From positions 1 through 35,025 of the forward strand of contig NZ_JAPYVU010000017.1 in assembly GCF_028276765.1 (NCBI RefSeq): DNA of 35,025 nt, read 5' to 3'. This document shows positions 27,486 to 30,965 of this stretch, piece after piece. The translations under genes and the position numbers were made by a program. The notes below the pieces were generated by a model, which made no database searches, was not told the DNA's origin, and saw nothing but the letters and a program-made list of their open reading frames with translations. The number at the start of each line of letters is the position of its first letter. The first letter of the stretch is position 1. The DNA comes from Sulfurihydrogenibium sp. (GTDB lineage Bacteria; Aquificota; Aquificia; Aquificales; Hydrogenothermaceae).

Positions 27486-29095
<1,610 letters not shown>

Positions 29096-29113
29096 TTAAC
29101 CAAACTGTACAAA

Positions 29114-29565
29114 ACTGTAAAAACGTGAAACGTTCAACGTTCAACGTGAAACGTGAAAAAGTGTATCAGTTTGCACAGTTTGGGTTGGGGTATTTGTATT
29201 CCGCCATTTCAGACACTTCCGACCCCAACAGGCGGTATTTTGGAAGTGTCATAGTCCCTGCCGCCAAGCACAGGAACTAACCTATTAGCCACTGCTATCC
29301 AATCCTTTGAAGCGTGTAATCGTTTCAAAGGAGAAAGGTCTCTATACGACCTTTCAAGACAGCAGAAGGCTAAGGCTATGGAAAGAACTTGCCAGCTTTT
29401 ATGTCTACCTGTAGGCAGACCCCTCACCTGCTCCTTCCGTTGGTTGACAGTTTGTTGGGTAGCTGTCTTGCTCTTTCCACTTTCTACAGGAACTATCAAT
29501 CTTTTTTTCATAATTAATCAATGATATTCTACTGATTCCGTATATTTCTTCACACTTTTTACAGT
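29114..29565. other. GC-rich structured island; candidate non-coding RNA or mobile-element remnant
   Basis: The stretch is bounded by an inverted repeat: ACTGTAAAAACGTGAA (29114-29129), and on the other strand the same with GT for C (29549-29565). 29161-29500 is about 47% G+C by my count, against an AT-rich surround. It contains many inverted repeats: AAAGGTC/GACCTTT (29335-29355), CCTTTGAAGCG/CGTTTCAAAGG (29304-29331), CAAGACAGC (29355-29363) / GCTGTCTTG (29462-29470), GTCTACCT/AGGCAGAC (29403-29420), and three interleaved pairs at 29184-29250. The strand of any RNA is unresolved: wobble pairs favour plus in one stem and minus in others. This fills most of the 571-bp gap between gapA and murF. 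Interpretation as an IS200/IS605-type remnant or as a free-standing RNA is inference. Confidence 0.55.
29123..29157. repeat. Five tandem 7-bp units
   Basis: ACGTGAA, ACGTTCA, ACGTTCA, ACGTGAA, ACGTGAA in direct succession. They lie within an inverted repeat, CCAAACTGT (29100-29108) / ACAGTTTGG (29175-29183). The place is upstream of gapA, so they could be binding sites or an element end. Confidence 0.75.
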
Positions 29566-29594
29566 TAATAGTTTTCTACTCATAATAATTTGTT

Positions 29595-29623
29595 ATTTTA
29601 CACTTTTTTACAGAAAATAGCAA
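29595..29623 (-). promoter_or_regulatory. Possible promoter reading into the structured island
   Basis: On the minus strand, TTGCTA (RC of 29618-29623), a 17-bp spacer and TAAAAT (RC of 29595-29600). A transcript from here would cross the whole island and then enter gapA. A near-copy of the spacer region (CTGTAAAAA plus GTG) recurs at the island's edge. Motif inference. Confidence 0.35.
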
Positions 29624-29654
29624 CTGTTGTACACCTTCTCGATTTTTTCAAAAT

Positions 29655-30965
29655 CTATTTTAACATAACTCTAAGCTTTAAAATCACGTCTTCCATTTTC
29701 ATGCCACGAGAACCTTTAACCAAAACAACCGGTTGATAATTAGAAAATTTCAAAATATCCTCTGCTATGTTATCTTTGTTATCAAAATGTTTAACCCTTG
29801 ACTTATCGTCAATCTCTTCAAAAATATACTTTGTTTCATTGCCATAAAGCATTATATAATCAATATAAGAAGCATTTAAAAGCTTTCCAATCTCTCTATG
29901 AAGCTCCTGAGAATACTCTCCAAGCTCAAGCATATCTCCCAAAACAAAAATCTTAAAGCCTTCCATACTGTTTAAAATATCAATTGCATTTTTTACAGAT
30001 AAAGGATTTGCATTGTAAGAGTCATCAATGATTGTAAAATTACCCATCTTTATGATTTCTCCTCTTTGGGAAGAAGATTTAAAATCTTTTAAAACTTCAA
30101 GGTTTTTTATTGGGTCATAACCAAGATGGTACAAAACACCGGCAACCGCTCCAATATTTTTAAATACGCCAATATTGTAAACCGGTATTTTAAGCTCTAT
30201 TTTATCATTTTTATATTTAATAACTCCAACTGTCCCATCTTCGACAATCTTTATATCTCTTATTTCAATATCTCCATCTTCTCCGTATGTTATTGGATTT
30301 TTTGGATTATAGAATTTTTTTAATTCAGATGGCAACACTGAATAATCCCCGTAATTAAATATTTCTCCTTTTCCTTTTATAACGTTCTCAAAAGAGCCAA
30401 ACTTTCCAACATGTCCATGTCCTACGGACACTAAAACACTAATGTCTTGATTTACTATCTTGCCAAGGTAATCAATATCTCCTACCTTTCCTGCTCCCAT
30501 TTCAATGATTGCAAAATCTATGTTTTCTGGAGTGTTGGCAAGAGTTATAGGAACGCCGATTTCGTTGTTGTAATTCCCCTGGGTTGCGTAGGTGCTTGCA
30601 AGATTAGATAATACATAATTCATAAGTTCTTTTGTTGATGTTTTTCCGCTTGTCCCTGTGATGCCAATGACTGCTTTAACTTGATTTCTTTTATGTTTTC
30701 CAACTTCTACCAATGCTTGATAGGTATCTTTAACTAAAATTCCGTTTTTAAAATTTAAAGGCTTTTCAGAAAAATAGCCAACCGCCCCTTTTTCTATTGC
30801 ATCTTCTATGTATTGATGACCATCTGCATTTTGACCTTTAAGCGGTATGAAAAAATCCCCTTCTTTTACTCTTCTACTGTCAATCTCAAATCTGTTTATT
30901 TTTTTATTTTCTACAAGATTTAAAAACTCGCCGTTTACAATCTTTTTAAGCTGGGCTAAATCCAT
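29655..30965 (-). CDS. murF: UDP-N-acetylmuramoyl-tripeptide--D-alanyl-D-alanine ligase
   Basis: 436 residues. It adds D-Ala-D-Ala to UDP-MurNAc-tripeptide in the cytoplasm, the last soluble peptidoglycan precursor step. The Mur ligase P-loop is GTSGKTST at 104-111; the central IEMGAGKVGDI and the DDSYNANPLS block, which is specific to MurF, are present. Its ATG overlaps the methyltransferase stop by one base (TAATG). It is the last gene of the hemA-led set, and no clear terminator was found after it. Confidence 0.96.
   Translation of the reverse strand: MDLAQLKKIVNGEFLNLVENKKINRFEIDSRRVKEGDFFIPLKGQNADGHQYIEDAIEKGAVGYFSEKPLNFKNGILVKDTYQALVEVGKHKRNQVKAVIGITGTSGKTSTKELMNYVLSNLASTYATQGNYNNEIGVPITLANTPENIDFAIIEMGAGKVGDIDYLGKIVNQDISVLVSVGHGHVGKFGSFENVIKGKGEIFNYGDYSVLPSELKKFYNPKNPITYGEDGDIEIRDIKIVEDGTVGVIKYKNDKIELKIPVYNIGVFKNIGAVAGVLYHLGYDPIKNLEVLKDFKSSSQRGEIIKMGNFTIIDDSYNANPLSVKNAIDILNSMEGFKIFVLGDMLELGEYSQELHREIGKLLNASYIDYIMLYGNETKYIFEEIDDKSRVKHFDNKDNIAEDILKFSNYQPVVLVKGSRGMKMEDVILKLRVMLK

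Follow-up and report, generated by a model that had tools for sequence, protein, structure and literature searches.

A 543-bp non-autonomous IS607-family element with a probable TnpB guide RNA at the Shine-Dalgarno site of gapA in Sulfurihydrogenibium sp.

The window, i.e. the whole stretch of 35,025 nucleotides of Sulfurihydrogenibium sp. that was analysed (contig NZ_JAPYVU010000017.1), carries gapA and murF with an island between them. G+C content is 0.44-0.48 across 29100-29500 versus 0.27-0.38 in the flanks. A sequence-only reading of this DNA had pointed to a GC rise in a non-coding island packed with inverted repeats; both are borne out, and five of the repeats were located with 79-100% match. 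Single-strand folding compared with 100 shuffles gave z-scores of -6.4 for the minus strand and -5.2 for the plus strand. The limits first drawn for the island had to be revised: composition and hairpins are real, but the true unit is 29091-29633, whose ends follow from the other copies and from the empty site of sister genomes, and its RNA core spans about 29486-29100 on the minus strand. None of the long-range repeats once taken to bound the island marks a transposon end; among them, the pair 29183-29175/29108-29100 forms the RNA's terminal hairpin. The features of the locus are summarized in Table 1.

Table 1. Features of the gapA-murF region; positions are those of the window.
Feature	Position	Strand	Remarks
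gapA, target gene	28085..29083	minus	Gp_dh_N and Gp_dh_C; start codon 7 nt after element
Predicted guide, first 20 nt of flank, AATATTTATGAGAGTAGCTA (gapA start)	29071..29090	minus	predicted from IS607 reRNA architecture (PMC10711439, PMC11061315)
Non-autonomous IS607-family element (very probable)	29091..29633	minus	543 bp; own-genome copies; precise empty site in two sister genomes
Right terminus CCAGG	29091..29095	minus	at gapA ribosome-binding position (AGGA; 7 nt from terminal GG to ATG)
omegaRNA/reRNA scaffold (almost certain)	29100..29486	minus (5' at 29486)	11 helices including 3' pseudoknot; alignment, covariation, RNAalifold, single-strand fold
Terminal hairpin D, CCAAACTGT/ACAGTTTGG	29183-29175/29108-29100; span 29100..29183	minus	98.5% paired
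Pseudoknot region	29184..29250	minus	three mutually crossing helices A, B and C
Helix A, GACACTTCC/GGAAGTGTC	29250-29242 with 29220-29212	minus	93% of cells paired; 8 pairs with double changes
Helix B, CCGCC/GGCGG	29235-29231 with 29205-29201	minus	100% paired; 1 pair with double changes
Helix C, GTTGGGGT/ACCCCAAC	29229-29222 with 29191-29184	minus	94% paired; 6 pairs with double changes
100-codon open frame	29209..29511	minus	relic of tnpB C-terminal tail joined to tnpA scrap, frameshifted near end; not a gene
Decayed tnpA 5' end (MerR-like HTH)	29495..29583	minus	frameshifted in window copy; 28-aa match to TnpA of L126
Left end, TGTACAACAGTTGCTATTTTCTGTAAAAAAGTGTAAAA	29596..29633	minus	query positions 22-65 conserved in ten other own-genome copies
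Left half of split target, AGAAGG	29634..29639	minus	former gapA Shine-Dalgarno (AGGAGG in sister genomes)
murF, upstream neighbour	29655..30965	minus	Mur ligase domains
Inverted repeat	29303-29314/29321-29332		92%
Inverted repeat	29379-29397/29461-29479		79% over 19 nt
Inverted repeat	29100-29113/29170-29183		93% over 14 nt
Inverted repeat	29113-29123/29556-29566		100% over 11 nt
Inverted repeat	29105-29122/29596-29613		89% over 18 nt

A search of the own genome with 29090-29660 returned 43 matches, and the GC-rich part is present at 18 or more dispersed places, so that the island is one member of a repeat family. In the longer copies, taken in the minus sense, a left end (29633-29596 in the window) is followed by an open frame of some 555 codons, then by the island and finally by a right end terminating in ...GTTTGGTTGACCAGG. 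Copies beside tnpB, which had been named as a sign of a mobile element, were thus found; the full-length copies carry this gene. The own genome (G000) holds roughly a dozen tnpB copies, full-length or partial, and in some of them tnpB is intact. The window copy and three others (L035, L036 and L037) have lost tnpA and tnpB and kept the start of tnpA, which in L036 is still readable as MNRKLLTTKKCEEIYGISRIPLINYEKK and shares 64% identity with L126 TnpA across 28 residues. These miniature copies stand at different loci and have one common deletion junction between tnpA and the RNA, from which it follows that the miniature form itself moved after the genes were lost. Two insertions are common to G000 and G005, L037/L125 before atpC and L041/L123 before the MEELKKLILEAWENRELL gene; some copies therefore predate the split of these species.

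In the sister genomes G002-G006 murF also lies directly upstream of gapA. The empty site is preserved in G004 and G005 (gapA 97% identical), where ...AGGAGGAATATTT-ATG follows right after murF. Aligned, the window reads AGAAGG[element..ACCAGG]AATATTT-ATG versus AGGAGG|AATATTT-ATG in the sister genomes: the insertion lies at a GG dinucleotide between the Shine-Dalgarno GG and AATATTT, the target is not duplicated, and the length of 543 bp includes only one GG of the two. Recombination took place at the GG of the gapA Shine-Dalgarno sequence, and the end of the element itself, ACCAGG, is now in the ribosome-binding position. Exchange at GG without doubling of the target is known for IS607 (PMC6188088). 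Comparison with G003-G006 revealed like empty sites at nine more loci, with (A)GGAG(G) a few nt before the start codon, i.e. ten loci in all with gapA included; for L032, one of the nine, the occupied and the sister site differ by an AGG, which leaves the exact ancestral target uncertain.

The 554-aa product of the frame in full copies scores 71.8 bits with TIGR01765 (cut-off 47.25) and 59.5 bits with TIGR01766 (cut-off 32), and with NF040570 'guided_TnpB' the TnpBs of full-length copies reach 47.6-60.9 bits, below the cut-off of 100 bits. The D-E-D motifs read GIDVN, SIENIN and NIDKDIAGAY; in this clade zinc-finger cysteines were not seen at the place usual for TnpB. An AlphaFold model built from 14 relatives (mean pLDDT 71.6) is folded from residue 1 to about 443, with pLDDT <50 for 444-554, and Foldseek matched it to Cas12k (E 1.8e-7), Cas12f and the TnpB of ISFba1 (E 4.3e-5). 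TIGR01766, the D-E-D motifs and Foldseek agree on a RuvC-type tnpB gene in full copies, which is deleted in the window copy, and the protein is a divergent TnpB clade of the TIGR01765 (tengcongensis) type. Since the guided_TnpB score is below cut-off and the usual cysteines are missing, nuclease activity in this clade is assumed. A serine recombinase gene, tnpA, precedes this tnpB in G028, G011 and G078. The TnpA of G028 (L126:876-1469), which adjoins this tnpB, has an N-terminal HTH and scores 223.7 bits with the IS607 model NF033518 (cut-off 110); the window copy has only the frameshifted N-terminal scrap.

The serine-recombinase TnpA (NF033518) together with the GG-GG exchange without target duplication places the family in IS607. 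Membership in IS200/IS605, with its Y1 transposase, hairpin ends and AT-rich target, is ruled out by GG exchange and serine recombinase. The sequence-only reading had offered, among other options, the 3' RNA-coding end of an IS200/IS605-type element whose gene is gone: it was right about the RNA of a gene-less TnpB element and wrong about the family, and the window copy is also more than a 3' end, as both transposon ends and the tnpA scrap remain. The island very probably encodes the RNA of a non-autonomous IS607-family element of 543 bp that lost its protein genes, kept a complete TnpB guide RNA and is seated at the gapA Shine-Dalgarno sequence.

A structure with 83 pairs in 11 helices was assessed on 44 aligned copies. 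Of the alignment cells 92.4% are paired, versus 37-47% when the pairing is slid, and double changes occur at 52 of the 83 pairs in 479 cells versus 165 +/- 11 after shuffling (0/500 reach the observed value). Although the copies are related to one another and one of them served to draw the structure, the margin over both controls is very large. Covariation is strong in the pseudoknot helices A and C, where for helix C GTTGGGG/CCCCAAC in the window copy stands against GCAGACC/GGTCTGC in L093. RNAalifold recovers most of the non-crossing helices unaided and adds one. The RNA fold is maintained by selection. Covariation thus gives strong support to the structured RNA suspected earlier; compensatory changes, on which that suspicion had been staked, are abundant.

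A covariance model built on the final 134 positions detected this RNA 3' of tnpB in Caldanaerobacter, Thermoanaerobacter, Fervidicola, Thermovorax, Caldicoprobacter, Carboxydothermus and others; E-values go down to 1e-22 among the first three of these genera and Carboxydothermus. It lies on the tnpB strand, overlaps the tnpB 3' end and reaches the right end, the position by which an omegaRNA/reRNA is recognized. In characterised IS607 systems the reRNA extends beyond the right end (PMC11061315, PMC10711439). The island RNA is almost certainly a TnpB guide RNA (omegaRNA/reRNA); from the architecture of those systems, it would end in the flank and have its guide read from gapA. The proposed check against Rfam matched no family, neither for the island (gathering score, E up to 5) nor for ten relatives (E up to 0.5); RAGATH-18, whose presence in Rfam is unconfirmed, gave no match at E <= 5 for the window and E <= 0.5 for the ten relatives.

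The loop of hairpin D holds a variable AT-rich insert that differs in size between copies and in the window copy contains ACGTTTCACGTTGAACG repeats. The AACGTGAAACGTTCAACGTTCAACGTGAAACGTG repeats at 29122-29158 fill this loop; similar short repeats stand in varying number beside the element in other copies and at least once apparently elsewhere (G000:C46:12805-12842). Possibly, then, a small repeat of separate origin has nested in the element. An extra hairpin of about 50 nt inside the RNA (AAATCGTGTTTCAAA...TTTGAAACACGATTT; alignment columns 208-258), an expansion segment, was observed in L118, L117 and L097, which are copies of G003 and G006.

Right junctions were scored for a start codon 3-13 nt downstream that opens a frame of at least 40 codons. 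Such a start codon follows 46 of 53 distinct junctions and 17 of 18 in the own genome, versus 191 of all 1963 GG dinucleotides in the window (9.7%); GGAGG (8/20) and AGGAGG (3/6) were counted in the window only and are small samples. In a wider set from other phyla, which in part contains the same records as the first, 27 of 42 junctions pass. Judging by eye from the translations, we take the downstream frames to be trpS, lexA, rpsM, ftsH, rplU, infB, atpC, secG and gapA. At the left end, GGAG(G) precedes the element in 26 of 30 copies read. Exceptions are the window copy (AGAAGG), L118 (AAAGAGG) and the miniature copies L036 and L037, whose left ends have no GGAGG flank and were counted against the main reading. 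The seating in Shine-Dalgarno sites may reflect either target preference or survival of harmless insertions. Ren et al. (2024, PMC11061315) reported the motif 5'-AGGAG in 18 of 22 strains with IS607 TnpBs and do not mention ribosome-binding sites; in the literature searched, with many subscription papers outside, no report joins the IS607/TnpB motif to Shine-Dalgarno or ribosome-binding sites.

The window copy could be dead debris, inert itself, with structure and junction inherited from active relatives. We regard this as possible, if somewhat doubtful. It has neither tnpA nor tnpB, its tnpA scrap is frameshifted, and no PF00239 serine recombinase was matched in the own genome (84-contig assembly); from the last point, movement of the element there is probably past, the source of transposase being gone, diverged or missing from the assembly. 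Against inertness, 82 of the 83 helix pairs are standard in the window copy while its protein frames are broken, the common junction of the miniature copies indicates movement without genes, and intact TnpB genes exist elsewhere in the genome.

That the folded RNA is a regulatory 5' leader which tunes gapA translation or mRNA stability is unlikely. The long gapA leader considered by the sequence-only reading agrees with the position, in the gapA 5' region and in the same direction, 7 nt from the start codon and with an AGG from the element in the ribosome-binding position, but with nothing further: sister species have a plain AGGAGG leader without the element, the same RNA stands before unrelated genes, and no cis-regulatory family of Rfam was matched.

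It is very improbable that the 100-codon frame (29209-29511) is a genuine gene for a protein and that coding accounts for the GC rise. In full copies the tnpB frame does continue through the RNA for about 105 codons, and codons ~448-554 (L031 and relatives) stay open as the tnpB tail in most full-length copies across genera, so that stops are avoided in spite of near-non-coding evolution. However, substitutions by codon position number 658:631:935 in the tail versus 3475:2083:7460 in the tnpB body, and synonymous to nonsynonymous changes 556:872 versus 5622:2705; no protein fold is predicted for residues 444-554 (pLDDT <50), and the miniature copies are frameshifted. By tblastn the frame matches TnpB residues 432-521 at 71%, with a stop, and a Pfam search with it found no family. 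The earlier statement that there is no credible gene holds in that the frame exists as a decayed tnpB tail without Pfam match; in place of an uninterrupted conserved protein frame, the relatives show changes nearly blind to codon position. A free-standing host ncRNA gene unrelated to a mobile element, also proposed earlier and agreeing with the strong covariation and with the G+C rise within an AT-rich genome, is more improbable still, being refuted by the clean empty sites in sister genomes, the position that varies from copy to copy and the fusion to tnpB in full copies.

For the guide-RNA-bearing IS607 element the following mechanism is proposed. A minus-strand transcript would be processed to an omegaRNA with a guide of about 20 nt that equals the beginning of gapA. 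The empty allele of the sister genomes reads AGGAG, G and the exact guide sequence, and the occupied allele ACCAG and G, which agrees with guided cutting of the former and sparing of the latter. Bound by TnpB from other copies, the guide RNA might direct cutting of element-free gapA alleles (AGGAG, G, matching target), by which loss of the element would be disfavoured; the occupied allele would be spared because the motif before the target changed from AGGAG to ACCAG. Transposition with TnpA in trans would tend to settle in Shine-Dalgarno sites because these supply the G-rich motif and because the element end leaves a usable AGG, so that host genes would survive. Chances are about even that this IS607/TnpB clade is specialised on ribosome-binding sites, with a nuclease motif that is the Shine-Dalgarno sequence, copies that nest in such sites of housekeeping genes and replace them with their own end, and gene-less copies that maintain themselves by supplying TnpB produced elsewhere with a guide RNA that targets the empty allele.

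The Cas12 and Fanzor nucleases count IS607 TnpBs among their relatives. If the AGGAG motif is the Shine-Dalgarno sequence in nature, this would explain both the spread in small gene-dense genomes without host death and guides aimed at gene starts. The work yields a well-aligned guide-RNA family of thermophiles, absent from Rfam in these searches, and the gene-less copies are a natural set for asking whether guide RNAs alone hold a transposon in place.

Among known systems, ISDra2 of the IS200/IS605 family has a Y1 transposase and a TTGAT target, whereas the element described here uses a serine recombinase and a GG target. Common to both would be an RNA-guided TnpB with an RNA from the right end (PMC8612924). 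IStrons are likewise mobile elements that limit damage to host genes, but they splice out of RNA (PMC4227781), whereas the present element puts its own end in the ribosome-binding position. ISXfa1/IS607 reRNA resembles the present one in the GG-GG exchange and in the fixed right-flanking G, a predicted part of the scaffold with the guide next to it; its motif is GGG, in contrast to (A)GGAG(G) at Shine-Dalgarno positions (PMC10711439). The ISFba1/RAGATH-18-derived TnpB-reRNA systems (PMC11061315) are alike in the IS607 transposon, the TnpB fold, a pseudoknotted structured RNA at the tnpB 3' end that passes the right end, and the motif 5'-AGGAG, equal to the left flank of the element here. They differ in their scaffold of 187 nt versus about 300 nt or more for the present RNA, which has no Rfam match, and in their TnpB; the present TnpB belongs to the TIGR01765 type, has about 440 residues predicted to fold and carries no zinc-finger cysteines. 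As a kind, the element is already known; what sets it apart is an RNA family that matched nothing in Rfam, a divergent TnpB, copies reduced to a guide RNA and the position in Shine-Dalgarno sites.
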